In this document: piece after piece, positions 1,254 to 60,846 of the stretch
Layout of the letters: each line of letters starts with the position of its first letter
How positions within the stretch are numbered: the stretch's first letter is position 1
Assembly: GCA_038049695.1 (NCBI GenBank)
Contig: CP142456.1
Coordinates: 42,512,001 to 42,576,000 of the forward strand
Source: Cinnamomum chago
Taxonomy: Eukaryota > Streptophyta > Magnoliopsida > Laurales > Lauraceae
Direction: 5' to 3'
Length of the DNA: 64,000 nucleotides
Made by a program: the position numbers and the translations under genes
The notes under the pieces: generated by a model
What the model was told of the DNA's origin: nothing
Databases searched by the model: none
Seen by the model: only the letters and a program-made list of their open reading frames with translations

Positions 1254-1420
1254 TGGCGGTTAATAGGCGGCTAGCCGACTGGTGACCGCCTGGTGACCGC
1301 CCCTGCAGAACCAAAATCTCTGCTTATTGATATGCTAACCGCCCCTGAGCGATCACCAGGTCGGTGACCAGTCGGCTAGCCGATTGGAGACCGCCTGCTG
1401 TCCGCCCAGTCAGCGGGCAG
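1254..1420. repeat. Palindrome cassette, GGCGG/CTAGCC/ACCGCC type
   Basis: G+C-rich island in AT-rich DNA with repeated inverted words such as CGGCTAGCCG and GGTGACC and many GCGG/CCGC pairs. It sits where the other family copies carry different palindromes. Confidence 0.7.
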
Positions 1421-2267
1421 TGCAAATTTTTGACTGATTTCAATTCCCTTTTCCTCCAATACATTTCTCCTATAATCCATCTCCTTCCCTGCAAGAAATT
1501 GAGCTCAAAAGCTCCTCCAATACATCATTAAACACTTCCATTCTCTTCATTTCAATTTCCTCCCAAACACCTCCATTCATTTCACATTCAATCACCAAGA
1601 AAGGAAAGAAATCCAACATTTTCAAGAATTCATTTGTATCAAAATCAAGTATGAAATAAAAGCTATAGGAGTCAATATAATTGAGAGTTAAACAGCTAAC
1701 AAGATTCATTCATGAACATTTGTTTCAAAATCAATGCAAGTTAAATGAATAGTGAAATCATCTACATTGTTAAAAAAAATCATTTAATGTTCAAAATATC
1801 TATTCATCCACTTGCCTTGGGTCCAAGCTAGTAAATCAAGCCTCTAATCACACTCTTAAGCTCAAATCACCAATCTACACAAAAACCCCAAAATACAACC
1901 ATTTACAAACCCTAAATAGTCAAAACAATGGAATAGAAGGAGGGAACTTTCAATAATGGAGATGGAGCTTCTCTAGGGTCACAAGAATACATATCTAGGA
2001 GATGGAGATGATTACTTACTTGGAAGGTCCTCTAATGGCAAGAGTTAGCTCAAGGAGAGTCTCAATGTTGGTGGATTTCTCTTCTAATGGCATCCATGGA
2101 AAGCTTACAAGGTGGAGAAGAAGAAGATGAAACCCATTTTTCTATTTGACAAAGGTTGGTGGTGTATTGAGGAGGAAGAAAGCAAGAAGAAGAAGAAGAG
2201 AAAACCCTAGGTAGTTTCACTTTTGAGCTGGAAAAGGAGAAGGGGAAGAAAAGGAATGGGTTCCCTC

Positions 2268-2274
2268 TTTTATA
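2268..2274 (-). promoter_or_regulatory. Putative LTR TATA box
   Basis: Minus-strand TATAAAA within CTATAAAAGAGGGAA, at the position where the other family copies carry TATATAAG or TTATAAGAGG. Confidence 0.5.
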
Positions 2275-2926: not shown

Positions 2927-3437
2927 TGTGAGAACCCGACCCCTAATCTCTTGGATTAGTGTTGTTTATTTGTGGATTAGTTTCTTTTAGTGGGATTAGT
3001 ATTTTTTGGGTTGAGTTTGTGAGCTAGAATGGTTTTTCTCTAGTTTTAGGGAATTTTGAGTGCCTTTGTGATTAGTGGGACCCTTTGGGGGTTCTTTTAG
3101 TGACTTTGCGCGAGATTGGGAGATTATTCGAATTCCTGATAATTCTTGTTTTAGCCTCATTTGACTCATTTTGTTAACCTCTACAACTTTCGTGTTCACT
3201 CCGTGCCCATTCGAAGTTCCGAAAATCAGTTTTTCCAGCCCGGAGGGCAAAACAGTCTTTTCACACCAAATCTGGACCCAAATTTCGAGATCCCAGAACC
3301 ATGCCAAAGTTATACTTTTTGAAAACTAGATTTTATGAGAAACATTTTTCTCTTCTTCGTCGATCGCATCCGAGGCCCACAAATAGATGTTTTACCCTTG
3401 GCAAGTGTTAAGTGAAGTGGGACCCACACCCACCCAT

Positions 3438-3444
3438 TATATAA
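3438..3444 (+). promoter_or_regulatory. LTR TATA box
   Basis: TATATAA in CCCATTATATAAGTGACTCC, followed at the usual distance by a pyrimidine-rich start region. The same block recurs at 11807-11813. Confidence 0.65.
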
Positions 3445-4665
3445 GTGACTCCACTCTCTTTCTCCCTCATTTCCTCAACCCCCAACGTCTGCAACTCCAT
3501 AGCTACAGTGCCAGCAGCCCCTCTTCTCCATTTCTTCCATTTCTCTTGCTCTTATGGAGCCTCCAAGCCACCAATCCGACGAGGAAACTCCGGCAACTTG
3601 CTCTCCTTCATCTCCTCTCTTGTTTGACACCATTTTTTGTGGGAAACCAAGGTGGGCAGCCCCTATTGCAAGCTTCTTCTTGTTCATTCATGGCCTTAGA
3701 GGTAAAGACTCCTTCCCATCTTCCCTTTTTGTGCAATGACTTTCCCTCAAGTTCTATTTCCTAGCTTGGTATGAGCCCATTCATTGTCTTCCTTTGTTTA
3801 ACCCATTTTAGGGTTTGTTTTGGGGGTTTTTGTAGAGATTGTTGATCTTGAGCTTGAGAGGTGATTAGAAGCTTGATTTGCTAGCTTGGGACCCAAGGCA
3901 AGTGGATGAATGGATGGTTTGAATGTTATCAAAGTTTTATGAGAAAATCCTAAGTTTTATTACTTGTCCTTGATCATTGGATACATGTTTTCACATATGC
4001 TTCTTGCCACATATATATTGATTTCGAAGTTTGCATATCAATGGTTGTTTCTCTCTTGTTAATTTCTTGGAAAGATATGCTTTCAAATTGTCAAAGTTGC
4101 TCACATGGTCTTGAAATGAATGGGGTTGGTTTCCCCACCCATGTTTATGTTTACTAGCTTGTATGGATTTGAAATAGAAGCTCATTTAAAGAGTTTGGCC
4201 AACTAATCTATTGTCTTGGAAATGGGATCAATGGTTTTTAATTACCCCTTGATTATGGCAAATGGACCCTTGTATACAATGGGGATTCTCCCCTTTGGTT
4301 TGGTTTTAAGTGAGAAGAAAGGAGATGTTTAGTTTTACTTTTTCATTGGAGCTTTCATGAGGAATGTGGTTGGCTAAGTCATTTAATGTTTTGTAAACAT
4401 GTTGGTTTAGCATGTATTGTCCTTTGGTTATATCCTATATGAATGCTTGTGAAATGGTTTCCTTCTTTCTTTAATTGCATTGGATTTGATATTGATGGAA
4501 GAAGTGATGGAATGAACACATGATGGAGTAATGGAGAAGTGTAGATGGATGCATTGGAGGAGCTCTTAGCTCAATTTTCTTGTAGGGACTCAGTAAAAGT
4601 GGGGAGAATGGTTTTAAGGAGGAGAAATGGCTAAAAATCTGATTACAGTGGGTGTTCCCGCACCT

Positions 4666-4976
4666 GGCGGTCAGCCTGCGGTCACCTTGCGGCTAGCCGC
4701 CTGGTGACTGGCGGCTAACCGCCAGCTAGCCGAAATGTCACGGTGGCTTTTCCAGAGAGCACACTTCTTCTCCTCAAAACTCAGTCAGCTTCACGGTTGC
4801 CCAGCGGCTAACCGCCGAATGCATCGGCGGCTAACCGCCAGGTAACCGCACTTGGCGGTCAGCTTTCCAGTAAGCTGCATTTCTGTAGCCCAGCCGCGGT
4901 CAGCTGTGCGGTCATCCAGCGGCCAGCCGCCTGCCCCAGCGGCGGCTAACCGCCAACTGACCGCCAGGTAACCGAA
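4666..4976. repeat. Palindrome cassette, GCGGCTAACCGC type
   Basis: At least two long units built from GGCGGCTAACCGCC-like palindromes, many CGGTCAGC/GCTAACCG words and the linker 'ttccag(a/t)..agc'. The related copy at 12886-13312 has three clearer units of about 118 bp. Confidence 0.8.
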
Positions 4977-5002
4977 ATTCCCCAGATTTCGAAAAGTTCC
5001 CC

Positions 5003-5032
5003 GCTCGAACGAACTCTCCGGTTCGTTCGAGC
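5003..5032. other. Perfect 12-bp inverted repeat
   Basis: GCTCGAACGAAC (5003-5014), a 6-nt loop, then GTTCGTTCGAGC (5021-5032). The copy at 11295 keeps only the right arm. The arms resemble the palindrome words of the cassette at 21294. Confidence 0.7.
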
Positions 5033-5550
5033 GTTGAGCTTTGTCAATCGAAGGGGATTCACTAGGCATTGCTTGATGCCATCCGAGAAAGAAACCATAT
5101 CACAAATATGTCATTCGAAATTTTGGAAAAATCGTAGGAGTGCATAAGGAGCCCGGAATGTCTCAAAACTCAAAGAGTACCAAGTAAGGGCTATAATAGA
5201 CATACGGGACCCCTATTCACTTAATTGGATTTCTAAATTGATATTTTACCCGAATTTCATTATAGTGTATTGTTTCACCTCATTCCCAGGAATTTCATCG
5301 CACGACTTGTTTTCTCGAAAGCTTTGGAGCTACAATAGTAACAGTGAATTGCCCCGAAATGTATTGCCCGATATGGAAAGACAGTGTGCCCTTGAGCACC
5401 CCCGTTTTACCGTTTATTTACTGTACTTGAATACTTGATATGCCTCGATGAGTTTTATCCTATGTGTCGGCATCACTAAGCTTGGATACTTTGTCGGTCT
5501 GATCCACTGACTTGGAAATCCTTCTCCCGTCCCGCCAGCTGCAGTTTGGA

Positions 5551-5613
5551 TCCCGATACCCGATCTAATACCGTGGTCCCGTCCCGATACCCGGTTCGCT
5601 ACCGTGGTCCCGT
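5551..5613 (+). repeat. 30-bp minisatellite, 2 units
   Basis: Two adjacent units of the pattern CCCGATACCCG...TACCGTGGTCC. Confidence 0.7.
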
Positions 5614-5884
5614 TCCGTGTATTTATATTGTATATATGATTTACGTTGAGTCTCCTCACCTTGTGTGACTGAGACCAACGTCCCGCTCTTGTCACTTCGG
5701 TGACAGAGGACTTAGCTTCTTGTGATTGCCATCTTGCCAGTTCCCGACTCCTTGGACACCCGACATGGTTTATATTGCTTACTTGTTTTCAGTTAAATGA
5801 TTCATTGCTTTTATGAAAGTTGTTATTTAGATAAGTGTTAATGCTCTCTATTGTAAATTCAGTCACTGTTATATTGTTTTATGT

Positions 5885-6560
5885 CCTTTGCACACGTACA
5901 TGTTTTACATGAATGCCGGTTGGGTGAATACCCATGCTTTTACATATGGTTCCAACGATCGATGGTTTTGCTAGAGTTATATGATTACACATGTTTTAAA
6001 ATGAATACCCGAGTTATTAAATGTCCATGCTTTGGAATGCGTTTTAAACGACACTCGTTTTGTTAGATCCCGATGTTTATACATGTTTTAAGTGAATACC
6101 CGGATTGCTAAACATTCGTGCTTTGTTTTAAATGATACTTGTTCTGCTAGGTCACTATGTTTATACCGATTTCAAATGAATACCCGATTTGTTAAATATC
6201 CCTGTTTTGAAATATGTTTTAAATGACACGTGTTTTGTCAGGTTCTATGTTTATACCTGTTTCAAATGATTACCCGAGTTATTTAACATCCATGCTTAAG
6301 AATATGTTTTAAATGACACGCGTTTTGCCAGATCCCTATGTTATACCTGTTTTAAAGGAATGCCCGATCTGTTGAAGATCCATGCTTTGAAATATGTTTA
6401 AATGAACGTGGTTTTGCCAAACTCCCATATTCATACTTGTTTTCCACGAACACCCGATTGTCAAATATCTATGCTTTTATAGATGATGTAAATGAACACA
6501 TGCTTTATTAGATCTTCCTGTTTTAACCATGTTTGAAAAGAATACATGTTTTATCCGAGA
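5885..6560 (+). repeat. Degenerate tandem block, period about 105 bp
   Basis: Recurring phrases (ATGTTTTAAATGA, ACCCGATTTGTTAAATAT, CATGCTTTGAAATATG, TGTTTTGCCAGATC) return about every 105 bp. Equivalent blocks occur at 14345-14870 and, on the minus strand, 34270-34830. The block is absent from subfamily 2, which explains part of the 4.2 versus 3.0 kb size difference. Confidence 0.65.
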
Positions 6561-6665
6561 TTCCTGAGTTTTCACCCGTTTAATTATATGCGGCATTTTG
6601 AGCAAATAGCATGATTTATCATTTGTATTATTATTCGCTATATTGTATTCTTTTCATCCACCTGC

Positions 6666-6681
6666 CAGACCGTCGTGTCTG
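6666..6681 (+). other. Conserved hairpin CAGAC-N6-GTCTG
   Basis: Identical 16-bp stem-loop word shared with six other copies; lies just before the 'tttggtactcagg' block. Confidence 0.6.
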
Positions 6682-7190
6682 ACCCACTACTTTTGGTACT
6701 CAGGTTCAGATTTATTCGCCCCGAGTTGAGTGTTTTGTTGGCTTTGGAGCCATACCTTGCAGGTTGTTTTGTCGGCTATGTCATGTAGACATTGAGTCTG
6801 ACATCGGAGCTACGTCACATTTGGGTAGTAGTTTATAGCTTATTGTTGTATGGCTTTTGTTAGCCCTTTTCCTTGGAATTCTTAATTAATGTACATTGAT
6901 AATTGTAACTTGAACATATTTGGGAATGCAATATCCTGTTACTGTCAGCTCTGTAAATTATTGTGATGGTTACCCCAGTCTGGTATGATTCTTGATATAA
7001 TAGCTATGGGCTAAAGGTTGAGTGCGACGCGGAATCCGATGGCCACGGACTTCGGGTCGCAACGCCACAAATGCTTCCGCAAAATATTCAGAATGTGTTG
7101 TCTTCACACACGCGGATCTTGGGAGAAGTGAAATACATTCATACTTAATCCCATCTCCCGCCCCCGAGGTTTCGGTTCGGGGGCGTGACA

Positions 7191-10100
7191 ATTAGTCATT
7201 ATGTCCTAATTTTTCTTAAACATGTTTTAGAGTAAATAGATGTCAAAAAATTTGCTAGAGCGCGTCTTTCAACAGTGAATTGTGTGTAACGCTGCTCGAA
7301 GCACGGGTCTCAGTCTTAGACAACCCTGATTCTCTGCAACACATTCCTCACCCGAAATCCATTTGAAAGAAAAACGTATCTTAGAACCTCCTAAATTACA
7401 TATTTCAGCCAAGAATAGTAAAAATTACAATTGAAAAGCATTTTCACCGAAATATACGCTATTGATCACACCAAATACGGTTTGCAGTCAGAAATGGCTC
7501 AAGATCCAATGAGAATCCACCTTAATCGCTAATTTTCGTGAAACTCATTTTAAAGGAAAAGGATATCTCAGAATTTCTAGAGCGCGTCTTTGAACAGGCG
7601 AATTGCGTGAAACTCGGTTTGGAGCCAACATTTTCCTAAAGCCGCATAAAATGCGATTTCATAATAAAATAGCCCTCGAATTGCCCGAAGCATTCGTTTC
7701 GGTCTTAAACAACCCTAAATCCCTTTTAAAACACTCCAAAACCTACAATCGCCTGAAACCAATTTTAAAACAGAAAAGTATATCTGAATATACAAAAATG
7801 TGTTTTTCAGTTATAAATGGCTCAGAGTCCCACGCATTAGTTTTTATGCCTGAATTTACCTAAATATCGATTTAAAAGGAAAAAGATATCTCAAAATTTT
7901 CTAAAGTGCACCTGTCAACCGTGAATTGCGTGAAATACGATTTGGAGCCACCATTTTCCCAGAGCTGTCTAGAATCCATACTACCGCCCGAAGCACAGGT
8001 TTCAATCTTAAACAACCCTTAATCCCATGTAATGCGTTCCTAACCCTAGTATCGCCTGTGAAACCCATCTTAAATAGGAATGTATCTCAAAAAATCCTAA
8101 ATTGCATATTTCAGCATAGATTCGTACGAATGCATTTCAATGCAAAAAGATTATTCCTTAATACACTAAAATGTCACGGAATCATTCAGCACCCATTTTT
8201 ATCGAAATATAGGCTATTGATATTATACAAAATACGTTGTTTCTCAGTTAGAAACGACATTGAATCCATTAGATCAGTTCTTATGCCCTAATTTACCAGA
8301 AACACGTTTTAGAGTAAAAAGATAACATAGAATTTTCTAGAGCGTGATATCATTCATGGACTACATGAAACGCAATTAACACCCACAATTTTTCGAGAGC
8401 CGCCGAGAATCCCTTACAAACTAACCGCCCGAAGCACGACTTTCCGTCTTAGACAACCCTTAATCCCCTACAATCGTTCCTAACCCTAAAATCGAGTGAA
8501 AACCATTTTAAAAGAAAAATGTATCTCGAGATATACTAAAACTCGTATTTCAGCATATATTTGTATAAAACACATTTAGAGTAAAAGATTAGACCATTAA
8601 ACCCTTAAATGCCCTAAAATAATGTAGCACGCTTTTTCATCCAAATATTGGCTATTGATTGCACAAAATACGATTTTCACTTAGAAATGGCTCGGAACCC
8701 AACAAAATTAGTTATTAAGCCCGGATATGCTGGAAACACATTTTAAGGAAAAAGATGTCCCTGAAATTTTTTGTCTGCGTCTTTCAACCACAAATTACAT
8801 GAAACGTGGTTTGGAGCCAACATTTTCCTAGAGCCGAGTAGAACACAATTTAATTTTAAAATAGCCCTCGAACTGCCCAAAGCACGCGTTTCGATCTTAA
8901 CAATCCTAAATCCCATTTAGAGCGTTACAAACCCAACAATCACCTGAAACCAGTTTTAGAATAGAAAAGTATCTCAAGATATCTGGAATGAATGTTTTAT
9001 CATAGAATCACATGAAATGCAATTCAAAGCAAAAGACTAGACCGGAATACCCTTAAATAACCTTGAATCATCCAACATGCGGTTTTATCTAGTTACAGGC
9101 TATTTATCGCTTGAAATATGTTTGTCCGTTACGAACAGGCTTGAATCCCATGAGACTAGTTATTAAGTCCTAATTTTTCCTAAACAAGTTTTAGAGTAAA
9201 TAGATATCACATAATTTAATAGAGCGCATCTGTCAACCGTGAATTGGGTTAAATGCGGTTTACCCCCAACATTTTCGCAGAGACGGCTAGGAATTCCCCT
9301 TCGAACTGGTCGAAGCACGGATTTCAGTCTTAAACAACCTCGATCCCCTGCAACACGTTCCTAGCCCTAGAATCACGCGAGACCCATTTGAAAGGAAACG
9401 TATCTTAGAATATCCAAAAATGCATATTTCAACCAAGAATTGTAAAAAACGCAATTCAAAGGAAAGACGAAACCATAATTCCCTGACATGCCCTAGAATC
9501 ACCCAGCATGTGCTTTCATCAAAATATACGTAGCAGTTGCACCAAATATGGTTTGCAGTGAGAAACAACTAAAAATCCCATGAGAGTACTCCTTAATCCC
9601 CAATTTCCGAGGAACTCGCTTTAAAGGAAAAAGATGTCGCTGAATTTTCTAGAGTGCGTCTTTCTAACCCGAATTGCTTGAAAAGTTGTTTGGAGTGAAC
9701 ATTTTCCTAGAGCCGCATAAAACACAATTTAATTTTAAAATAGCCCTCGAATTGTCTGAAGCATGCGTTTCGGTCTTAAACAACCCTAACTCCCATTTAA
9801 AGAGTTTCAAACTATACAATCGCCTGAAACTTGTTTTAAAATAGAAAAGTATCTCAAGATCTCTAAAATGCATGTTTCAGCATATAATTTCATGAAACAC
9901 ATTTCAAAATAAAAGACTAGACCAGAATACCCTTAAATATCCAAGAATGATCTAGCGCGCAGTTTCATCTAGTTACACGCCATTGATCGCACGAAATGTG
10001 TTGCCGGTCCGTTACGAACAGGCTTGAATCCCACGAGATTAGTTATTGAGTCCTAATTTTTCTTAAACATATTTTAGAGTAAATAGATATCACAGAATTT

Positions 10101-10290
10101 CCTACAGCATGTCTTTTAATCGTAAATTGTGTGTAACACAGTTTACCTCCAACAGTTTTGCAAAGACGACCAGGAAATCTCCTTTGAACTGCTCAAAGCA
10201 CGAGTTTCAGTCTTAGACAACCTTGACCCCTGTAACACGTTTCTAACCCTAGAATCACGTGAAATCCATTTGAAAGAAAACGTATCTTAG
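7191..10290. repeat. Satellite array, segment 2: monomers F G A B C D E F
   Basis: Tandem monomers anchored on the word 'ttttctagagcg(c)gtct' at about 7250, 7575, 7900, 8335, 8775, 9215, 9645 and 10095. Same-phase monomers are much more alike than neighbours: the F-type at 7250 and 10095 share the 'gtgtgtaac' start, 2845 bp apart. X-type monomers (C, E, G) share 'ttaaacaaccctaaatccc'; Y-type (A, B, D, F) share 'gttcctaaccctag'. There is no coding region; open frames here are repeat frames. The segment ends where a LARD-like element enters (TSD CTTAG at 10286-10290). Confidence 0.85.
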
Positions 10291-10329: not shown

Positions 10330-11806
10330 GAATAGGGTGAGCTTCATTTATGACCAATTTTAACCAATTTTAACTTCTTTAAAACAAACTAGTCACAAGT
10401 GATGATTATCAAACAAAATGCGGAAGCATAATAAAAACATCACCACAAAGCAATCACCATCACACAAGGATTTATAGTGGTTCGGCCTCAATGCCTACAT
10501 CCACTGCCGGCTTGTGATCCAACACCCCACCGGATTTCCACTACTTATGATTTTCAATAGGCTAAGCAATAACCTTTACAATATGCTTTTCAAGGCTAAG
10601 CAATAACCTTTACAATGATGTTTTTCAAGGCTTAACATCAACCTATACATTATGCTTTTATAGGCTAAGCAATAACCTCTTCAACCACAAGGTTGGTTAT
10701 CTCACTAAGTTAGTGTCTATAATACACTTGATGGAGATTCAATTAAGCTGATTACAACGCCTCTAAATTAGGAGGATATGGAAGTGAAAAACTAACTCAC
10801 ACAAACACTTAATGAATGCAAAGATGTATGCTCATGATGTGTATGTGTGATGTCCTCAATCATTTTGAAAATGAAAGCTCATAAATGTATGCCTAAGGCT
10901 TTTGAAAGTTTTAGCTCATAAAACATTTATGATTGAGGAAATGCTAATCACATGTAAAAACTAACTTGTAAAAGATATACAGTTGTATCCTAAACAAGTT
11001 GTGAAAATTCAAAGACCAAAACATGTGAAGCATAGGGATGTCAATCAAATCAACAATGTAGCTAAAAACATAAAAATAGATTTGATTGAAATTAGGGGAC
11101 AAATCATATGTAATTATAAATACAACTTGAAAATGATATACCTATCAAAGTAAGGCAAGTTGTGAAACTTTAAAACAATAATACATATGATTTGTAAAGT
11201 TTGTTGAATCCAAAACATAAGATACATTTGAAAGAGATTTTCTTATGATGGAAAACAACAACCAAAGATTCAACCAAGTATATGAATCATGTTATGTGAG
11301 AACCCGACCCCTAATCTCTTGGATTAGTGTTGTTTATTTGTGGATTAGTTTCTTTTAGTGGGATTAGTATTTGTTGGGTTGAGTTTGTGAGCTAGAATGG
11401 TTTTTCTCTAGTTTTGGGGAATTTTGAGTGCCTTTGTGATTAGTGGGACCCTTTGGGGGTTCTTTTAGTGACTTTGCGCGAGAGTGGGAGATTATTCAAA
11501 ATTCCTGATAATTCTTGTTTTAGCCTCATTTGACTTATTTTGTTATTCTCTACAACTTTCGTGTTGACTCCGTACCCATTCGAAGCTCCGAAAATCAGTT
11601 TTTCCAGCCCGGAGGGCAAAACAGTCTTTTCACACCAAATATGGACCCAAATTTCGAGATCTCGAAACCATGCCAAAGTTATACTTTTTGGAAACTAGAT
11701 TTTTTGAGAAACATCTTTCTCTCCTTCGTCGATCGCATCCGAGGCCCACAAATAGATGTTTTACCCTTTGCAAGCTTTGAGTGTAGTGGGACCCACACCC
11801 ACCCAT

Positions 11807-11813
11807 TATATAA
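11807..11813 (+). promoter_or_regulatory. LTR TATA box
   Basis: TATATAA within the same block as 3438-3444. Confidence 0.65.
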
Positions 11814-12885
11814 GTGACTCCACTCTCTTTCTCCCTCATTTCTCCATCCCATCGACTGAAACCTCCATAGCTACAGTGCCAGCAGCCCCTCTTCTCCGTT
11901 TCTTCCATTTCTCTTGCTCTAATGGAGCCTCCAAGCCACCAATCCGACGAGGGAACTCCGGCAACTTCTTCTCCTTCATCTCCTCTCTTGTTTGACACCA
12001 TTTTTGTGGGAAACCAAGGTGGGCAGCCCCTATTGCAAGCTTCTTCTTGTTCATTCATGGCCTTAGAGAGATTGTGGATCTTGAGCTTGAGAGGTGATTA
12101 GAAGCTTGATTTGCTAGCTTGGGACCCAAGGCAAGTGGATGAATGGATGGTTTGAATGTTATCAAAGTTTTATGAGAAAATCCTAAGTTTTATTACTTGT
12201 CCTTGATCATTGGATACATGTTTTCACATATGCTTCTTGCCACATATATATTGATTTCGAAATTTGCATATCAATGGTTGTTTCTCTCTTGTTAATTTCT
12301 TGGAAAGATATGCTTTCAAATTGTCAAAGTTGCTCATATGGTCTTGAAATGAATGGGGTTGGTTTCCCCACCCATGTTATGTTTACTAGCTTGTATGGAT
12401 TTGAAATAGAAGCTCATTTAAAGAGTTTGGCCAACTAATCCATTGTTTTGGAAATGGGATCAATGGTTTTAATTACCCCTTGATTATGGCAAATGGACCC
12501 TTGTATACAATGGGGATTCTTCCCTTTGGTTTGGTTTTAAGTGAGAAGAAAGGAGATGTTTAGTTATTTGTTTTCATTGGAGTTTTCATGAGGAATGGGG
12601 TGGGCTAAGTCATTCAAGGTTTTATAAACATATTGGTAGAGTACTTATCATCCTTGTGATAGCCTTTATGAATGTTGTGAAATGGTTTCCTTCCCTTTTT
12701 CTTTGCATGGGACTTGACATGGAAGTAGTGATGGATAGAACTCAAATGGGGATTTGGAGAGGTATAAAGAGATGCATTGGAGGAGCTATTAGCTCAATGT
12801 TATTGTAAGGACTTGTGGATGTGAGGAAGAGGGTTTTGAGGAGGAAAATGGCTCAAAACTGAACACAGTGAGCATTTTCGTAACT

Positions 12886-13877: not shown

Positions 13878-14000
13878 TCCCGCTACCCGGTTATTACCGT
13901 GGTCCCGTCCCGATACCCGGTTATTACCGTGGTCTTGTCCCGATACCGCAGATTGCTACTGTGGTCCCCGATGCCCGGCTCGCTACCGTGGTCATGTATA
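13878..14000 (+). repeat. 30-bp minisatellite, 4 units
   Basis: Four consecutive variants of CCCGATACCCGGTTATTACC plus GTGGTC; the highest unit count in the window. Confidence 0.75.
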
Positions 14001-14019
14001 GTATATGTATATGCATTCA

Positions 14020-49033: not shown

Positions 49034-49079
49034 ACACCAAGATTATAAAGTACCAGTTGCAAAACTAACTTCAGAAACA

Positions 49080-49335: not shown

Positions 49336-49338
49336 CAG

Positions 49339-49950
49339 CTAGCTAGAAAGCTCAGTTAGAGTCAAATTCATCTTATTCATATTATAATTGACCTTGAAAT
49401 TGTTGAATGACTCTGGTGACTCAAGGATTATGTCAATCTGCGATTCTGCATCAATCGCAACCCCCAGTACATCTAACTCATTCAATGAGTCCATCATTTT
49501 CAACATGTGCTCCTGTACTGGTGTGCCTTCAGCCATCTTGGTGCTTATAAGCACCCTCATAGCAGCATGTCTAGCAGGCCTGCCCTGTTCCGCAAACATC
49601 TCCTTTAAGTTTGATATAATATCATATGCAGTCTTATAGGATTGATGTTGGTGTTGCAAAACACTAAACATGGATGCCTGTATGTAACATCTGGCCATCT
49701 CATCATCTTTGGCCCATTTGATGTAAAGTTCCTTTTCTTCCTGTGATGCTTCCAGCACTGGCTCATCAAGGGGGGGGGGGGGGGGGGGTTTGGTAAGGAC
49801 ATATTTATATCCTGAAGCTGTCAGGACTATATCCGGGTTTCGTTTACAGTCTACATAGTTGGATCCCACAAACTTATTCTGGTTGAGGATGGTCGCAAGT
49901 GGATTGAAAGTATTTGCATTCATGCTAGAAATATTGTAGCACGTAACCAT
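49339..49950 (-). pseudogene. Copia gag (UBN2-like) domain
   Basis: About 203 residues. The start region MNANTFNPLATILNQNK, then ELYIKWAKDDEMARCYI, AYDIISNLKEMF, AAMRVLISTKM, HMLKMMDSLNELDVLG and ILESPESFNNF match the plant copia gag pattern. Near residue 57 a proline run is encoded by a G19 tract on the plus strand (49770-49788). Capsid-like structural protein of the element. Confidence 0.9.
49770..49788. repeat. G19 homopolymer within the copia gag region
   Basis: Nineteen G in a row (C on the coding strand). Length is likely polymorphic and error-prone in sequencing. Confidence 0.85.
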
Positions 49951-50555
49951 ACATTCAATTAATGAATTTAAATGACATTAGGGTTTAGTATTCTACCAAA
50001 TTTATATGGAATCCTCATAACCATTAAATTCAGAATACATCGGAATTCCAATCCCCGGGGTATGCCTCCTTGGGGAGTGCAAATACCACCTAGATTGGTG
50101 CGAATCAAGGTTGGTAAAAATTTGAGATTAAGACTAACTATCCATGATCCCCATCATTCATTATTATCTAGGCATCTCATACCAAATAGTGAATAACTCC
50201 CGATTAGCTTCGGTTTCTAAAATACATGAGGCAAATCCTTGGGGATACTACATCATTATTTTAGTTAAGTATGACCCACCAACTAGCATTGCATGACAAT
50301 CGTTGCAGGCAGCTCCTCCTTAGGGAGTGGGCCCCTGCCCCGTCTCACCAACACTATCCTAAGGAGATCCATTTCTAGTAACCGGAGAAACAAAAGCCCT
50401 CCGTGGGGAACGACCATTCTCAAGATGGCGCGATGCTAATACTTTCCTTACAATGGACCTATGGTGGAAAACCATGGGGATTTCTCAATTTAAATGCCCC
50501 GTTCCCACCTAATATTTTATAATTGAGAATCTCCTTGTAAGGTATTAGGGCCCAC

Positions 50556-50573
50556 ATATATATATATATATAT
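50556..50573. repeat. (TA)n microsatellite
   Basis: About nine TA units in the copia leader. Confidence 0.8.
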
Positions 50574-51348
50574 GAACATCAAATCATCTTATGATATGAT
50601 CAAAGATTGGTTCCAAGTCAAGTTATTTTAAGGAAAGTCCAGTTGCTTAAATTAGTGTTACCAATGTGTCCATCTCATGGGTCATCAACACTAATTAAAA
50701 CTCTTTCCAAAAATTAATTTGATTTGACCAATTTTAGTAACTTGCTATGTTTGGATCAAATTTGGAAATATTCTAAATTAAGCATGCATCCATAAATAGA
50801 AAGTGCTGAAATTAGAAACTGGTCCTCTCCTCCACATGGCCCTAACGGAATAGACTTCTTGGACTTCTAGACTTTCCAAAACTTTGGAATTCCCCAAACT
50901 ATTTGGGCAACTCCAAAACTCTTTTGGTAATCTTCAAGCTCTTTGATTACAAGTCCAACATCGCTTTCCTTCTTCGTCTCGGACATTGCCAGAATTTACA
51001 AATTTAGAAAAATTACATAAATTCCTATGCCTCGATTATGAGACTTACATGGTTATCTAAACATGGAAATAAAAAGGGCTATAGGGAAATTCATCATGCC
51101 TTGCCCTTTCACGGGAAACCAAGGAAACCATGATGCCCTTTACACTTAGCCTTAAATAAACCAATAACCACAAATAGAAAGCAAAAGACTTGTGGGCCAT
51201 ATGGAGAGGACATAATCATCTGCAAGTTAGTATCTCATACAACCATACAAATCACAAAAATAGGTTACCAAATAATGTTGGAAAAATAGGATGTAATAGA
51301 ACACCCAAAACTGAAAAATCCAATTTCTGCAACCTGCTGTACAATGTC

Positions 51349-51428
51349 CTTGGTCGACAGGCCAGAGGGCTCGGTCGACCGACCTGCAAGTGCTCGGTCG
51401 ACCGAGCACGAGTCTCGGTCGATCGAAC
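51349..51428. repeat. Palindrome cassette, CGGTCGACCG type, in the copia leader
   Basis: TTGGTCGACAG, GCTCGGTCGACCGACC, GTGCTCGGTCGACCGAGCAC and TCTCGGTCGATCGAA in a row, spaced by about 10 nt. The central one is a perfect 20-bp palindrome. The words match those of the younger LARD, although the element family is unrelated. Confidence 0.85.
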
Positions 51429-51683
51429 TGACGGAAACTTGCAACTTGGGTTTCGGCAGTTCGTGTCCAATCTTCACCAAATCACTTCTAAAGTGTTCCA
51501 ATGGCTTCGTACCATCCTTCCATCATTATTAAACCCTTTTGTGACTATCCAAACATGAATCTACTATCAAACCAAGTAAATTCATCAAAACTGATCCTTA
51601 CATAGCCCTTGCTCTATCTTCTTCGCATCTCATGCAAAGATTAGAACAAGCTTAATGATCTAACATGAATAGAGATGAGGTAT

Positions 51684-51696
51684 GGCTCTGATATCA
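51684..51696 (-). other. Copia primer-binding site (initiator Met-tRNA)
   Basis: Minus-strand TGATATCAGAGCC, one base off the usual TGGTATCAGAGCC, two bases from the 5' LTR end. Confidence 0.85.
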
Positions 51697-54204
51697 ATTG
51701 TTTGAAGTAGGTGCACCTTTCACATAGGTTTCAAAAACTTTTGACCCACTTGATGCAGGGATTAACTATCTAGAAGGCAACGAACTCAATCCAGGATGCA
51801 GTTCCTCAAACTCGTAAATCATGTACAATAATATAACCTATCTAGAAGATAGAAAACAACACCTAAACATGCAACCACGAAATCTAAAGCATACAAGGAA
51901 GTAGATTATACCTTTGGAGCTTAGTAGTGCTCTAATGGAGAATTTGAATTCTTTCTTTGATGATGAACACCTTCACTAATCAAATCAGAATCTCCAACAC
52001 CTTTTGATCTTCCACGCTATGGCCCATATCAGCTTCTCTTATCTCAAGAAGATGGTGGAATCTCCAAGAGAAAACCCTAAAAGAAACTAGAAGAGAACTA
52101 GAAGAGGGAGAGGATGAGGAGTGTGCAACACTTGCACAATACTAGGCTTGGGCGTGAATTCCAATAGTGGAATTGTGCATGGGGAACGTCCAAGGCACTC
52201 CTCTCCTCGTTTATAGCACTTAAGCAGCCTCCTCTTGCTAATTGAAATAGAAGTCTTACTTCCATAATAATTAGTTGCTTACTAAATCACAATTAGAAGT
52301 CTCACTTCAAATATGATTAGTAACTTTCTCTTTTTCTAACTAAAATAGAAGTCTCACTTCCATTAATAATTAGTAACTTACTATTACGACTACTAGACAT
52401 CTGACTTCAAATAGAAATAGTAACTTTCTATTTCCTTTTAGAGTTCTACTATAATTAGTATCTTTCTAATATCTTGGGCTAGCGTGGGGACCACTAAGGA
52501 TTCCTTAGAAAGCTGACTCCAACTGGAACACGTGACCCCACAGTTAATTGAAAATAACTCCACTATATAAATGCAATTAAACTCCAGTCTTAGGAATAAA
52601 TTACAATGAAGACCCTAAACTTCCCAATTACCACAAATAGGCCCCTCCATCTATATCCATGGATCAATTGGACTTGTCCACCAAAATAGATCCATATCTT
52701 ATTATCCTTGAGCCCCAATTAATTATAGTGATCATTTCGTACCGATCCAATTAACTATTAATCGGAATGGGTGCGCACTTACCAATGATAAATCCATTAA
52801 TTGGCACAAGGGGATATTAAAGTTAGATTCCATCTTGACCATTGAATGTTCCTACAGCTCTACTACCACGTACTCAAATCATCGAGGTGTTGACCTACAA
52901 TTGGCCTCACTCATTGGTGACTCAAAGCAAATGAGTAGATAGAAACTTGAGTTCATTAATGTCTCAGGATTGTGATCCTATTGCTAGGGAATTATGAGAG
53001 CAGACCTTAAAAGTAAAGACAGTGTATATAAGGTGTTTCTCATGGTCCTTCAATACATCCAATGTACCAGCACCATGATCCAGAATCTTACATTCTGATG
53101 ATCGAGACAAATCACATTATCTCGTAGTGATCAAAGTGTTGCAACCTTGTGAAATGAGATGCCCAATTTCATTATTGGTTGTGAAGATATTTAAGTATAA
53201 GATTTGCAATACATGTCTCCTGCATGTGGATCTCATCCATACACATGTATTACATCTAGTATACTTGTGTACTCCGGTTCATCTCATGAACCATTATGTC
53301 ATTCGTATTGGTTATTGTAAGTCCATGGGGATCCGAACCCTAGAGGGGGGGTGAATAGGGTGAGCTCCAATTATGACCAATTTTAACAATTTTAACTTCT
53401 TAAAAACAAACTAGTCACATGTGATGATTTATCATACAATATGCGGAAGCTAACAAAAACAATCACCACAAAGCAATCACCATCACACAAGTATTTATAG
53501 TGGTTCGGCCTCAATGCCTACATCCACTACCGGCTTGTGAACCACCACCCCACCGGATTTCCACTATTTATGCTTTTCAAATAGGCTAAGCAATAACCTT
53601 TACAATATGCTTTCCAAGGCTAAGCAATAACCTTACAATGATGCTTTTCCAAGGCTAAACATCAACCTATACACTATGCTTTTAAAGGCTAAGCAATAAC
53701 CTCTTCAACCACAAGGTTGGTTATCTCTCTAATTTAGTGTCTTTAATACACTTGATGGAGATTCTATTTAGCTCATTACAATGCCTCTTAAATAGGCGGA
53801 TATGGAAGTGAAATACAAATACACACTCACACTATGAATGCAAAGATGAAAACAAATGAAGTGTGTGTGTGTGGTCCTCAATCATTTTGAAAATGAAAGC
53901 TCATAAATGTATGCCTAAGGCTTTTGAAAGTTTTAGCTCAAAAACATTTATGATTGAGGAAGTAATGCAATCACATGTTAAAAGTAACAACTTGTTAATG
54001 ATATCAAAGTTACACAAGTTGTATGAAATGGATTAGCTCTAAACATGTGATGCATAGGGATGTCAATCAAATCACCAATGAAGCTCAAAACATAAAAATA
54101 GATTTGATTGAAAAGAGGGGACAAATCATATGTAATTATAAATACAACTTGAAAATGATTTACCTATCAAAGTGATGCAAGTTGTGAAACTTTAAAACAA
54201 TAAT

Positions 54205-54805
54205 ACACATATGATTTGTAATGATGTTGAATCCAAAACATAAGATACATTTGAAAGAGATTTTCTTATGATGGAAAACAACAACCAAAGATTCAACAAA
54301 GTATATGAATCATGTTACATATTTCATTAACATGATCTACTTAGATTTACCAAAGATAAAGTACTACTTTGATGAATCAATGGTGATGTATCCAAAACAA
54401 TAGATCTATTCAAAATATAACACATGCTAAGGATACAACACATCATAGGTTAACATGTTACTAAGATTTACCAATGATAAAACAAAACATGAAAACATAT
54501 GATTTGTAAAGAAGTTGAGTCCAAAACATAAGATACTTTTGAAAGTGATTTTCTTATGATGGAAAACAACAACCAAAGATTCAACCAAGTATAGGAATCA
54601 TGTTACATATGATTTACCAAGTTTCTTTCATTAACATGATCTACTTTGATTTACCAATTCAAGTACTACTTGGATTGAATCATATGATGTTGTATCCAAA
54701 ACAATAAATCAACTCAAAACATAAAATATGTTAAGGACACAACACAAACATAGTTTAACATGCTAGAAATGATTTACCAAAAATAAAACAAAAGCATGAA
54801 AACAT
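54205..54805 (-). repeat. Tandem duplication of about 300 bp in the young LARD LTR
   Basis: Starts of 'catatgatttgtaa' at about 54208 and 54498, with a partial third at 54798; same structure as 27023-27625. Confidence 0.75.
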
Positions 54806-54973
54806 ATGATTAAGGAAGGAAGAGCCTACTTGGTGGTTTAACTTCATTAATCCAAGCTTTAGCTTTCCTAATCATCCCCTTCATCCCTTGGTTCTTTTCC
54901 CTTTTGATATGCCTCAAATCCTCTCAAGGAGGGGCTCTAAAAATTCCCAACTTTTGGTAAGGGAAAGAACTCA

Positions 54974-54980
54974 TTTTATA
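54974..54980 (-). promoter_or_regulatory. Young LARD LTR TATA box
   Basis: Minus-strand TATAAAA in GGCTATAAAATGAG; the cassette lies about 25-170 bp upstream. Confidence 0.6.
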
Positions 54981-55005
54981 GCCAAAAAGGTCCAACGGCT
55001 ATATC

Positions 55006-55150
55006 CTCGGTCGACCGGCACACAGGCCTCGGTCGACCGGGAAGGCACAACGGTCAGATTTCTGACCGTTGGAGGTTTCAGTGCAAAAATGCAGTTTTTA
55101 CCTCCAGTTGTCTCGGTCGACCGAGACCTGTGTCTCGGTCGACCGGCGAC
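55006..55150. repeat. Palindrome cassette, CGGTCGACCG type (young LARD 3' LTR)
   Basis: Four CGGTCGACCG palindromes in two pairs (about 55007-55040 and 55112-55146) around a hairpin made of AACGGTCAGA/TCTGACCGTT. Confidence 0.85.
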
Positions 55151-55528
55151 ACTGCCGGGACTCCCCCCTATTTGCAAAAAATGCAACTTTTGCATATTTG
55201 AAGGTTTTTCTTTGGGGGACCTTTTGGCCACTAAATCAAGCTTGGAAAACATGTTTTAAAGATTCTAATGGTTTTTAAAACATGACATAAAAAGCCTAAA
55301 AAGATTCAAAACTTTTAAAACAAAGGCTTGCTTGATTTCTTGAAAACTCTTTTCTAAAACAAATGCATCCAAGATTTAAAAACAAATCATGCATAAAACA
55401 AGATCTTAAAAACAATGCATGAATAAATCAAGATTTCAAGTTTACTTTAAAACCAATGCAAGTGTGTAATTCAAATGATGCTAGAATGAAATGCATCCAT
55501 CAAATTGCAATCTAGAAAATTCCTAACA

Positions 55529-58500
55529 ATCTCCCCCTTTGCAATTTGATGGCAAACACACTCACCACTGAACATACACACTTAGTCTTCAGCTCCCCCT
55601 CAGCTGGACAAGGCTTGAAATCTTCTTGGATGCTTCTTCTTATAGCTTGGGCTCTTGGGCTTCAATCTTCATGATGCTTGGAGCTTGATTAACCTTCAAG
55701 CTTTCTTTCTTCTTTCTTTCTTTATCCAAGCATATTCTTTAGCTTCCAAGCTATCTTTCTTCTATTAGCTCTCCCCCTTTGACCATGCCTCTTTCTCCCT
55801 TTGGCAAGGTATGCATTCTCTCCCTTTGTAGAAGATCATACATAACTCTCCCCTTTGGAAGCTTGGACTTTCTCTTCACCCTTTTGAGAACTTGCATAAT
55901 TTCTCCCCCTTTGCCATTAAATTGCAAAGGTACCTACACACATGAAACAAGGAAAATACCATTAGTAGCACCTGTTAACAAATGAAATCGAAGATGAAAT
56001 CCATAACAGGCTATCATGTGAGGTAGTAGTCTCTAAGGGCTCAAAGGCAATCCTAGGGTCAATTTGATCACAACTAATACTTCCTATGAAGGTTTACACT
56101 CCCCCTCAATCCATTATCTCCTTTTGTCAAACTTTTGACAAAGATTTAACTATTAGGTACAAGAAGAAGATGGTTTAACCAAGTGAGGGTCAACTTCAAG
56201 GAAAGGATTAGATTCATATAACTATAAAGCTCAATATGATCAAATTACCAAAAGAGAGCTAGGTCTATGGGAAAAGCAATCATGGATATCAATTGGACAA
56301 ACAAGGAATACCAATTGAGATTTAGGATATGACTTAATAAATCAATCACTCTAAAATGGATTTAAAAGTATACCTATTATGAGAAATCCAAATTAGAGCT
56401 ATCCATGATATGGGGTTTACTCAAACATAGCATCAAACAATATTACTTAAGAAAAACATATGCTATGCAAGATTTTGAAAATCATTTCATTCAATCAATA
56501 AATATGACTTATAAAGTGCAAGATGAGTGAAATGAAATTCAAACATGAAGCCAACCTCAACTAATAACCAACCAATATTATGAACACATAAACATGGTGG
56601 TCATAAGATATACCTATATGAGCAAAAGAGGTGGCAACATGAGCATTATGATGCTAATGGTGTGTGACATGGGACAATCATATTACTTATCAAGTTCAAT
56701 CCAATGCACACAAGTTTTATCACATTCACAAGAAATCAAATCAATCAAACAATATACCAATTGAATCCAATTGAATTTGATAACATGATAAAGAGCAAGA
56801 ATGTGACAAAATTCCATCAAGCATCATAAATGCATATTCATCACTTTTAAAGATATAACTATTGAGCATAGTGATGAACAAGAGAAATTGCAATGCAAAA
56901 AGATATGACTTGGTAAAGCATGCAATTTCCAAAGTGTCAAAATCATATGAATTCAACATCTAAGATATCCATCAAACATATAGAAATATGAGAAATGGGT
57001 CTCAAAGAGTTTCATATGATTAAGAACACTACTATGAAGTTGAAACATGTATAAGGATGATATCACTTAGAAAATACACATGAATCAACATCATAACCAT
57101 CCAAATAGAAATGACTATAAAGCATAGAGGATGGATTTGAGTTCTAGTATGGTTTCTACAAATATAATAGATAACACAACCATACATAGAACAATTGTCA
57201 TTTGCATAGAGAGGATCAATCAACACTCAAGATCTAACTCATACCATATCATCAATAAAGAATATAACTATGTAAGCACAAGAAGGTATGAAGTTAGAGA
57301 GACATCATGGATCACATAAAGATGAAGATGGACCACATAAATGGATATACCTATTAAGAACAATGGTTAATTCCAATTCATCTAAAATGATTCATTAAGC
57401 TATCATGTAACATCTCCACTCTTAGCAAATGCACTAAGCTTACAATGCAATGGAAAAAGATATGAGGTTTATACCAAATGAACTTAGCACATAAAATCAC
57501 ATATGTACCTAAAAAGCTCAAATACAAGATTTTACTATAAAGCACATAAACACTCATTAATTTGCATTAATGAAACTATATACCAAAAAAGGCACAAACA
57601 TGCAAATCAATGAAATCATATCCAACCATGCAATGTAAGACAACAAAATCAATTTGCATAAAGAATGTAACTAAAAGAGCAAAGATGCAAATAGATTGTA
57701 AAAATTATTTCCTTTCAAATGATATAATCATAAATAGGCACAAGGAAATAAATTCAAGGAAAATGCTTCTAAAAATACAACCAATAAGGCTTAGAACATT
57801 TTCCAAAGTTTCTCAAATCACTACAATTTATGAAATTCCAACAAAGAATCATTTATAGAATTAAGAGCAAGTGATTTTGAAAAACAAGAAGTGTACTATT
57901 GTAAAGTTTTCAAATTATAAAACAATAGACACTTACTAAGTTTCCATACCAAGAGATATAACTTTGAAAACTCAATGGAAAACTAAAATAGCTTCAAATC
58001 ATTTGATTTACAAAAAGGATGTAACTATGACAAACATCAAATGATTTTACAACATCAATTGATCATGAAAAACTAGCTATGAAAGCATTTGTAATCACAA
58101 TCAATTGATCATGAATAGATATGCACTACAGGAGATATAACTATATGATCAAAATGCAAATCCATCATGAAAGTATTGCAATCAAAGGATTTTGAAAACC
58201 ATGAGATATAACTTTAAAAGTTCATGAAGACAAAATCAAATGATCACAAAGAAACATTGCATTTTAAAAGATGTGACTATAAAGAAACAAAATGCAAATG
58301 TAACATGACCAACAAAAAGATATAACTAAAAAGCATAGGTTGGTCTAGTGGGATCAAGGCCTTAAGGTTACTCAAATAGTCTACCTTTGAAAATTCACCT
58401 AAGGTCTTGAAAAGGTGTCCTTGAGAGATCACTTTGAGGACTCACCAACTCTAGAAGATATAACTTGGAAAAGTCTTAGAGTGGTGCAATGAGGCTAGGG

Positions 58501-58633
58501 AAATTTCAATTTCAATCACAGTGGAAATCTTTAAAAAGATATGCAATAAATCACAACACTAGGGTCCAAATCTAGCAAGGATCAACTCCGGGTTGTTAAG
58601 CCCTAAAATGGAGTAACCCGCTCTGATACCACT
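55529..58633 (-). other. Non-coding interior of the young LARD
   Basis: 3.1 kb of AT-rich sequence with no recognised domain and no long open frame. Some eighteen variants of GATATAACTAT are strewn through it (for example 56855, 57259, 57950, 58133, 58203, 58316, 58455), most at the same relative places as in the older copy. The purine tract is at 55529-55542 and the primer-binding site at 58620-58631. Confidence 0.85.
58620..58631 (-). other. Primer-binding site of the young LARD (initiator Met-tRNA)
   Basis: Minus-strand TGGTATCAGAGC, two bases from the 5' LTR end. Confidence 0.92.
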
Positions 58634-60846
58634 TGTAAGTCCATGGGGATCCGAACCCTAGAGGGGGGGTGAATAGGGTGAGCTCCAATTATGACCAATT
58701 TTAACAATTTTAACTTCTTAAAAACAAACTAGTCACATGTGATGATTTATCATACAATATGCAGAAGCTAACAAAAACAATCACCACAAAGCAATCACCA
58801 TCACACAAGTATTTATAGTGGTTCGGCCTCAATGCCTACATCCACTACCGGCTTGTGAACCACCACCCCACCGGATTTCCACTATTTATGCTTTTCAAAT
58901 AGGCTAAGCAATAACCTTTACAATATGCTTTCCAAGGCTAAGCAATAACCTTACAATGATGCTTTTCCAAGGCTAAACATCAACCTATACACTATGCTTT
59001 TAAAGGCTAAGCAATAACCTCTTCAACCACAAGGTTGGTTATCTCTCTAATTTAGTGTCTTTAATACACTTGATGGAGATTCTATTTAGCTCATTACAAT
59101 GCCTCTTAAATAGGCGGATATGGAAGTGAAATACAAATACACACTCACACTATGAATGCAAAGATGAAAACAAATGAAGTGTGTGTGTGTGGTCCTCAAT
59201 CATTTTGAAAATGAAAGCTCATAAATGTATGCCTAAGGCTTTTGAAAGTTTTAGCTCAAAAACATTTATGATTGAGGAAGTAATGCAATCACATGTTAAA
59301 AGTAACAACTTGTTAATGATATCAAAGTTACACAAGTTGTATGAAATGGATTAGCTCTAAACATGTGATGCATAGGGATGTCAATCAAATCACCAATGAA
59401 GCTCAAAACATAAAAATAGATTTGATTGAAAAGAGGGGACAAATCATATGTAATTATAAATACAACTTGAAAATGATTTACCTATCAAAGTGATGCAAGT
59501 TGTGAAACTTTAAAACAATAATACACATATGATTTGTAATGATGTTGAATCCAAAACATAAGATACATTTGAAAGAGATTTTCTTATGATGGAAAACAAC
59601 AACCAAAGATTCAACAAAGTATATGAATCATGTTACATATTTCATTAACATGATCTACTTAGATTTACCAAAGATAAAGTACTACTTTGATGAATCAATG
59701 GTGATGTATCCAAAACAATAGATCTATTCAAAATATAACACATGCTAAGGATACAACACATCATAGGTTAACATGTTACTAAGATTTACCAATGATAAAA
59801 CAAAACATGAAAACATATGATTTGTAAAGAAGTTGAGTCCAAAACATAAGATACTTTTGAAAGTGATTTTCTTATGATGGAAAACAACAACCAAAGATTC
59901 AACCAAGTATAGGAATCATGTTACATATGATTTACCAAGTTTCTTTCATTAACATGATCTACTTTGATTTACCAATTCAAGTACTACTTGGATTGAATCA
60001 TATGATGTTGTATCCAAAACAATAAATCAACTCAAAACATAAAATATGTTAAGGACACAACACAAACATAGTTTAACATGCTAGAAATGATTTACCAAAA
60101 ATAAAACAAAAGCATGAAAACATATGATTAAGGAAGGAAGAGCCTACTTGGTGGTTTAACTTCATTAATCCAAGCTTTAGCTTTCCTAATCATCCCCTTC
60201 ATCCCTTGGTTCTTTTCCCTTTTGATATGCCTCAAATCCTCTCAAGGAGGGGCTCTAAAAATTCCCAACTTTTGGTAAGGGAAAGAACTCATTTTATAGC
60301 CAAAAAGGTCCAACGGCTATATCCTCGGTCGACCGGCACACAGGCCTCGGTCGACCGGGAAGGCACAACGGTCAGATTTCTGACCGTTGGAGGTTTCAGT
60401 GCAAAAATGCAGTTTTTACCTCCAGTTGTCTCGGTCGACCGAGACCTGTGTCTCGGTCGACCGGCGACACTGCCGGGACTCCCCCCTATTTGCAAAAAAT
60501 GCAACTTTTGCATATTTGAAGGTTTTTCTTTGGGGGACCTTTTGGCCACTAAATCAAGCTTGGAAAACATGTTTTAAAGATTCTAATGGTTTTTAAAACA
60601 TGACATAAAAAGCCTAAAAAGATTCAAAACTTTTAAAACAAAGGCTTGCTTGATTTCTTGAAAACTCTTTTCTAAAACAAATGCATCCAAGATTTAAAAA
60701 CAAATCATGCATAAAACAAGATCTTAAAAACAATGCATGAATAAATCAAGATTTCAAGTTTACTTTAAAACCAATGCAAGTGTGTAATTCAAATGATGCT
60801 AGAATGAAATGCATCCATCAAATTGCAATCTAGAAAATTCCTAACA
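58634..60846 (-). repeat. Young LARD 5' LTR (2213 bp)
   Basis: Same length as 53316-55528 and almost the same sequence; TATA box at 60292-60298. Confidence 0.95.
60324..60468. repeat. Palindrome cassette, CGGTCGACCG type (young LARD 5' LTR)
   Basis: Duplicate of 55006-55150. Confidence 0.85.

Follow-up and report, generated by a model that had tools for sequence, protein, structure and literature searches.

What is the function of the arrays of short, CpG-containing palindromes that recur in the long terminal repeat (LTR) retrotransposons of Cinnamomum chago? The question is raised by a stretch of 64,000 nucleotides (GenBank assembly GCA_038049695.1, contig CP142456.1, positions 42,512,001 to 42,576,000, forward strand; hereafter the window), in which an initial annotation had marked 13 islands built from repeated self-complementary words. 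All 13 were found where they had been placed, and all are arrays of palindromic or near-palindromic CpG words (Table 1; islands are named below by their first position). Judging from the makeup, spacing and conservation of the words, it seems rather probable that these cassettes regulate in cis, each as a row of dyad-symmetric sites to which a homodimeric, sequence-specific protein binds.

Palindromic arrays in three families

Palindromes are clearly enriched. Perfect palindromes containing CG, with a G+C content of at least 0.5, number 31 in the window at lengths of at least 10 bp (6.0 ± 2.1 in 20 local dinucleotide shuffles) and 60 at lengths of at least 8 bp (25.5 ± 4.4 in as many). A comparison restricted to the islands gave the same picture: pooled, they hold 39 perfect CG 8-mers, whereas 500 dinucleotide shuffles gave 7.9 on average and never more than 20. 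Taken singly, they show a modest excess, with p < 0.05 in eight of the 13 by near-palindromic 10-mers and in nine by perfect 8-mers. The three islands with GGCTA-type words (1254, 4666, 12886) contain no perfect CG 8-mer, and island 1254 is significant by neither measure. The words are palindromic overall, as had been claimed, with GCGGCTAACCGC being only quasi-palindromic.

The carriers were assigned to families by self-comparison, LTR ends, target-site duplications (TSDs), junctions and Pfam domains. Three families were indeed obtained, which we call F1 (islands 16213, 27821, 55006 and 60324), F2 (1254, 4666, 12886, 17530, 21294, 31988, 37208 and 39238) and F3 (51349), but they are not all unrelated, since F1 and F3 are both Ty1/copia. 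Nor are the islands 13 independent cases, because eight of them sit about 1.2-2.0 kb into the homologous LTRs of F2. The proposal that unrelated elements share the design is supported for Ty3/gypsy (F2) and Sirevirus-type copia (F1).

The arrays are a known kind of feature, the palindromic LTR boxes of Sireviruses, which in this genome extend to the LTRs of a Ty3/gypsy family and to the leader of a copia element. The novelty implied at first is therefore reduced, as palindromic arrays have already been published for Sireviruses (PMC2829016). New here are the word scheme, the preferred spacing of 20-23 bp, the evidence of constraint, the exchange of blocks and the genome-scale excess of words.

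Word scheme, constraint and exchange

Four of the words, CGATCGATCG, CGCTCGAGCG, CGGTCGACCG and CGTCCGGACG, follow one scheme, CG-NN-CG-N'N'-CG, and the fifth word type has a TA centre. A centre-to-centre gap of 21-23 bp occurs at least once in ten of the 11 window arrays examined (16213 and 55006 were outside this listing); island 1254 has a single gap of 105 bp, and 31988 shows 22 only when two mismatches are allowed. Among arrays with at least two words within 130 bp, from the window and from fetched copies, we found a gap of 21 in all 16 GATC architectures, of 22 in 19 of 20 CTCGAG architectures, of 22 or 23 in all six GGCTA architectures and of 22 in 21 of 36 GGTCGACC architectures; gaps of 32-33 and 40-41 also recur in GATC arrays. 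The spacers differ in their letters and keep their length. In four exact-word searches of the genome, 43 of 62 gaps of 10-60 bp measured 20-23 bp among the matches listed (CGGTCGACCG 17/17, CGATCGATCG 14/21, CGCTCGAGCG 10/19, CGTCCGGACG 2/5).

Counted on one strand of the 1.06 Gb genome, CGGTCGACCG has 48,732 exact copies and the same-composition dyad CGACCGGTCG 37, CGCTCGAGCG has 35,424 and its counterpart CGAGCGCTCG 47, and CGATCGATCG has 18,040; for CGTCCGGACG the excess is weak (1,737 vs 978 for the reversed control). Carrier elements were assigned for the fetched loci only. Three words alone thus account for more than 100,000 genome sites, so that retrotransposons would make up a large part of the targets of a factor that binds them.

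Because copies decay neutrally after insertion, changes private to one copy show mutation, and changes shared by at least three rows of an alignment show what lineages tolerate. Over four alignments the words carry 11 shared and 58 private changes and the spacers 168 and 169 (Fisher p = 7e-8), with p = 0.002 for F2 GATC, 0.014 for F2 CTCGAG and 0.0003 for F1; restricted to CpG sites, the shared and private counts are 3 and 41 in words vs 14 and 26 in spacers. Relative to their length, words and spacers have similar numbers of private changes (58 in 152 word columns, 169 in 493 spacer columns), so the words do not mutate less. These figures rest on the distinct rows left after identical ones were removed (33 of 45, 13 of 13, 18 of 18 and 26 of 50) and exclude changes found in just two rows (10 in words, 52 in spacers) as well as L001, a duplicate of a window copy. 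Rows entered the count by way of anchors. The one for GATC, which itself includes words, retained the 30 copies L001-L030, L116 and every one of the 12 GATC-only arrays. Of the 27 fetched arrays with CTCGAG words, 13 passed the corresponding anchor, which did not pick up the window copy; 18 of 21 rows passed the F3 anchors and 50 of 51 the F1 anchor. Selection, named as a possible cause in the initial annotation, gains support here, as the words resist lineage change though they mutate freely in dead copies.

Within F2 the word itself has changed. Comparable LTR positions hold GATCGATC, CGCTCGAGCG, CGTCCGGACG or GGCTA-type words, and the copies at 16315 and 19966, whose words differ, align at about 78% on both sides of the array, with no alignment of at least 150 bp across the array-bearing block of some 360-540 bp. 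Of 39 fetched F2 arrays, 12 have GATC words only, 18 CTCGAG words only and nine are mosaics of both. They were retrieved by a downstream-flank pattern and hand-picked from the first 100 of 1,033 places (40 were requested, one being a 27-bp match alone), and the sample is biased to one flank variant, so these shares are not genome frequencies. Homologous flanks, different words and mosaic arrays together indicate that the word is exchanged as a module. Of the two origins suggested at first, convergence or exchange, exchange is supported within F2, where arrays mix words and have been swapped along with adjoining sequence; between families the two do not separate. A single ancestral insertion followed by normal divergence, the counter-explanation given with that suggestion, misfits the data, since flanks remain homologous where the word between them has been replaced as a block.

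Could the arrays have spread without any function, by slippage, unequal exchange and fold-back priming during reverse transcription, with homogenisation keeping the words alike? Their highly variable architecture, the frequent mosaics and the word pair of island 12886, which repeats every 115-118 bp, would all be accommodated. We nevertheless judge this improbable, as words resist lineage change and the spacers of the same arrays do not, and as spacing is kept despite differing spacer letters. The 1,300-fold excess over a same-composition dyad also speaks against it, although amplification of a few families could yield a large excess too.

Candidate functions and known systems

Of the roles listed in the initial annotation, the binding of a factor fits best, and an RNA structure is possible, mainly in F1. 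The protein may be a host factor or one acting for the elements. Each word would represent two half-sites that contain CpG, and a distance of about two helical turns between words could place the bound dimers on one face of the DNA, where they may cooperate. In all four F1 LTRs, from two elements, a TATA box lies 26 nt downstream of the end of the array (the boxes at 54981, 27796 and 16188 have the same offset from the nearest word as the one in Table 1), and here the array would most likely drive LTR transcription. The F2 array lies in the 5' half of the long LTR. In F3 it occupies the leader rather than the LTR, about 250-335 nt after the primer-binding site (51685-51693), and might serve as a downstream enhancer. 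Selection would keep the words in active lineages and decay would follow insertion, while blocks would be swapped between F2 subfamilies, perhaps by template switching. The bound protein, its cooperativity, its transcriptional role and template switching are what we infer from these patterns. Beside the cores, complementary letters are in the main no commoner than marginal frequencies predict (e.g. F1 ±1, 0.38 vs 0.40; F2 GATC ±1, 0.67 vs 0.66), which is what the reading of each half-site by a single protein subunit would give.

Several observations weigh against protein binding. The gap statistics count homologous arrays as independent, CTCGAG arrays have further regular gaps of 17 and 50-51, and perfect CGTCCGGACG words are more commonly 48-50 or 70-72 bp apart than 22 (2/12, among the matches listed). 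A clean 10.5-bp periodicity across all gaps was rejected: vector strength is 0.65 at period 10, and also 0.57 at 17 and 0.51 at 13, so that the signal is the 20-23 gap itself. For F2 we found no TATA box at a constant distance from the array, and the F3 array lies downstream of the promoter. Taken by itself, F3 does not reach significance in the constraint test (p = 0.13), whose overall signal could be due in part to homogenisation of words within arrays. Small excesses of complementarity occur at a few flanking positions (e.g. F1 ±4, 0.38 vs 0.30; CTCGAG ±1, 0.86 vs 0.66, N = 7). Finally, shuffling the spacers around frozen words gives weaker folding than that of the F1 and GGCTA arrays (z to -6.4), of island 39238 (z -3.9) and of two of four further F3 copies at z below -2 (L094, -3.1, and L100, -2.2); protein sites do not require such folding.

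Folding speaks for an action at the RNA level, in which the words would give hairpins in the U3 or leader RNA, either of use to the element or processed by host Dicer into small interfering RNAs (siRNAs). Hairpins of the latter kind have been proposed for maize Sireviruses, whose palindrome regions are reported to be small-RNA hotspots (PMC5311732, PMC10760457). Each of the 13 islands, taken with 250-bp flanks, has a 110-nt window at or below -48.9 kcal/mol (the folding threshold in PMC10760457 is -40), and the arrays fold with z of -2.5 to -12.3 relative to dinucleotide shuffles. The F1 spacers pair as well (z is -6.35 at 60324, and six more F1 arrays have -1.6 to -5.1). With the words frozen, however, extra pairing is not significant at 17530, 21294, 31988, 37208 and 51349 (z -0.8 to -1.5), and the model does not itself predict a spacing of 20-23 bp across different words. 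A stem model was examined through covariation beside the core, where no clear compensatory changes appeared, and is not preferred for that reason. Strand-asymmetric decay, in which C->T would be tolerated through G-U pairs in RNA, was uninformative, the private word changes being balanced (19 G->A, 17 C->T). As a general explanation RNA action appears unlikely to us; a role in F1, in the GGCTA arrays, in 39238 and in some F3 copies is possible and may coexist with protein binding.

The leader position of the F3 array, and words that are self-complementary and specific to a family or subfamily, would also suit dimerisation or packaging signals, by which palindromes pair two genomic RNAs of one family. 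We consider this very improbable. Those of F1 and F2 are LTR arrays, with the F1 ones preceding the TATA box, and the GGTCGACC core is common to F1 and F3, which would spoil the specificity of pairing.

The Sirevirus boxes, termed RM boxes, were described in 2010 as element-specific CpG palindromes that form CpG islands in the LTR a short distance 5' of the TATA box; they were reported to be Sirevirus-specific, absent from classic copia elements and present in at least eight copies per element, and no binding factor is identified there (PMC2829016). Among the motifs given there, that of Vitis is the F1 word itself, CGGTCGACCG, which like the Usier core CGGACGTCCG fits our scheme exactly; the fifth word type is included in the Citrus core CGGCTWRCCG, and Tnd-1 CAATCGATTG resembles CGATCGATCG. 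Most others of the 13 published motifs have a longer centre, and fixed spacing, a word scheme, mosaics and a shared/private test do not appear in the parts of that study that were covered. The arrays described here differ further in occurring in Ty3/gypsy LTRs and a copia leader, and in the three to four words of an F1 LTR. The F1 array has the RM-box layout, namely a CGG-CCG core palindrome in a CpG-rich part of the LTR upstream of the TATA box, and looks like an RM box in its working. Element 53316-60846 has four words per LTR and no perfect one in its internal part, and on this copy-number feature we do not file the array as an RM box.

The LTR palindromes of maize Sireviruses were reportedly followed up in 2016. 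Short family-specific motifs in arrays are also known from VANDAL/VANC and from the Spm TnpA subterminal repeats, where a DNA-binding protein reads them and counters silencing; those, however, are DNA transposons with a protein of their own, and none was sought here. The F2 arrays resemble the "plastic" CpG island of Del (Tekay) elements (2014, PMC4029996), which likewise lies in the 5' half of a long LTR and varies in length and sequence. Here such an island resolves into palindromic word arrays, whereas the main text of that study contains no "palindrom" words; it reports no CpG island in its eudicot Del group. In the part of the open-access literature that was covered, we found no published description of palindromic arrays in gypsy LTRs.

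Still more tentative, and in our view possible but doubtful, is a common grammar by which unrelated LTR superfamilies of one plant genome would use CG-NN-CG-N'N'-CG dyads two helical turns apart. The two-letter core would be an exchangeable address for a family of dimeric host proteins, and swaps of array modules would switch the address in a race over LTR control. The sharing with a Ty3/gypsy family, the preferred spacing and the simple word scheme make it practicable to look for a dimeric DNA-binding protein in plants.

Carrier elements and other repeats

Table 1. Cassettes and carrier elements in the window (gaps are centre to centre, in bp).
Feature	Position	Strand	Description
F1 cassette, 5' LTR	60324-60468	-	Four CGGTCGACCG words; gaps 22, 84, 22
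F1 cassette, 3' LTR of element 53316-60846	55006-55150	-	
F1 cassette, second F1 element	27821-27925	-	GGTCGACC words; gaps 67, 22
F1 cassette, partner LTR of second element	16213-16314	-	Interrupted by F2 LTR inserted at 16315 (TSD CTTGG/CCTGG)
F1 TATA box	60292-60299	-	GGCTATAAAATG; 26 nt from nearest word
F1 element	53316-60846	-	LTRs 53316-55528 and 58634-60846; TSD GTTAT
F1 primer-binding site	58620-58631	-	TGGTATCAGAGC
F1 polypurine tract	55529-55539	-	AAGGGGGAG-AT/TG; inverted repeat on flanks
F2 cassette	17530-17650	+	CGATCGATCG words; gaps 21, 40, 32
F2 cassette	37208-37360	+	CGATCGATCG words; gaps 21, 41, 12, 43
F2 cassette	39238-39325	-	CGATCGATCG words, 2/3 decayed by one base
F2 cassette	21294-21470	+	CGCTCGAGCG words, 2/6 imperfect; gaps 22, 50, 22, 17, 22
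F2 cassette	31988-32075	+	Two perfect CGTCCGGACG words 50 bp apart; gap 22 at <=2 mismatches
F2 cassette	4666-4980	+	GCGGCTAACCGC/GCGGCTAGCCGC word pairs at 22-23 bp
F2 cassette	12886-13310	+	GCGGCTAACCGC word pairs at 23 bp
F2 cassette	1254-1410	-	Two CGGCTAGCCG words at 105 bp
F2 solo LTR	16315-19331	+	TG..CA; TSD CTTGG/CCTGG
F2 solo LTR	19966-23194	+	TSD CTCCT
F2 solo LTR	35988-39023	+	TSD GTAGT
F2 solo LTR, longer subtype	2927-7190	+	TSD ATTAG
F2 solo LTR, longer subtype	11295-15502	+	TSD TGTTA
F3 cassette, leader	51349-51435	-	GGTCGACC words, 2/4 imperfect; gaps 21, 23, 21
F3 copia element	44220-60972	-	5' LTR split by F1 insertion
F3 LTR copies	44220-45962; 51699-53315 plus 60847-60972	-	
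F3 gag and pol pieces	46702-49977	-	

The primer-binding-site junction, polypurine tract, inverted repeat and polyC tract support F1 as a non-coding, Sirevirus-type Ty1/copia family. The junction of the second F1 element (26111, minus strand), TTTTCAATTGGTATCAGAGC, matches the Sirevirus motif CA/ATTGG/TATCAGAGC exactly, and element 53316-60846 has the variant ACA/AGTGGTATCAGAGC. The polypurine tract is of Sirevirus type, with the inverted repeat CCATCAAATTGCAA ... TTGCAATTTGATGG and another G-rich tract upstream, and near the 3' end of the LTR stands a polyC-rich signal, TATTCACCCCCCCTCTAG, compared with the published motif by description only. The LTRs are 2.2 kb long, and those of element 53316-60846 are 99.955% identical. 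Its internal part of about 3.1 kb contains no open reading frame of at least 150 aa, and pol was not found in F1 within the window. The F1 cassette includes an inverted repeat, CAACGGTCAG/CTGACCGTTG, at 60366-60389 with a homologue near 55048, and the cassette as a whole is predicted to fold, as RNA, into a single long, branched hairpin. Elsewhere, at C3:56839323-56866576, six F1 matches follow one another head-to-tail at steps of 5,369 bp, probably as an LTR-internal-LTR tandem.

The F2 LTRs measure 3.0-4.2 kb and are mostly solo. We rejected complete F2 elements in the window, as in 28 of the best 30 copies the LTR end is followed by differing DNA; in the other two the LTR end motif was not found. 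F2 is Ty3/gypsy by the domain set of a coding copy outside the window (L062), whose LTR end matches F2 and which encodes gag, protease, reverse transcriptase, RNase H and integrase in gypsy order. Its Pfam matches above the cut-off are Retrotrans_gag, RVP_2, RVT_1, RT_RNaseH, Integrase_H2C2 and SH3_Tf2-1, with rve (28.4 bits, cut-off 32.6) and a C-terminal Chromo (1.3e-4, 22.2 bits, cut-off 25.1) below it. F2 probably belongs to Del/Tekay. F2 LTRs ending in GGGGGCGTGACA fit U5 att type A of Del/Tekay chromoviruses (GGG at -8 to -10), and those ending in GGGGTCGCGACA carry T at -8. Another copy, L061, has an internal part of 1.8 kb in which no coding region was recognised (no Pfam scan was made). 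The F2 LTR at 30601-33625 has a run of 20 A directly after its CGTCCGGACG cassette and lacks the usual F2 end. At C3:75702813-75725768, at least five F2 flank matches recur at steps of 5,732-5,733 bp, again probably an LTR-internal-LTR tandem.

F3 is classed as copia only (Pfam RVT_2 and Retrotran_gag_2). Its junction, CA/ATTGA/TATCAGAGC, is one base off the Sirevirus motif, and that of a relative (L085) is CAATTGGTATCAACGC. The last 203 nt of the LTR contain no polyC tract, a signal published for 17 Sireviruses.

F2 LTRs have inserted at cassettes of F1 (16314/16315 and 19331), of another F2 copy (L002) and of F3 (L093). Among 28 F2 3' flanks, two (L001, which is the window copy at 16315, and L002) show an insertion inside a cassette or at its border, and in two more (L009, L017) the insertion is 80-272 bp from one; these counts, which have no proper control, are suggestive only of an insertion preference. 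Between and around the nested elements are diverged satellite-like repeats (7191-10290, 28447-30600, 40890-44218 and 60974-62783), with mutual matches at offsets of about 870 bp and shorter subrepeats.

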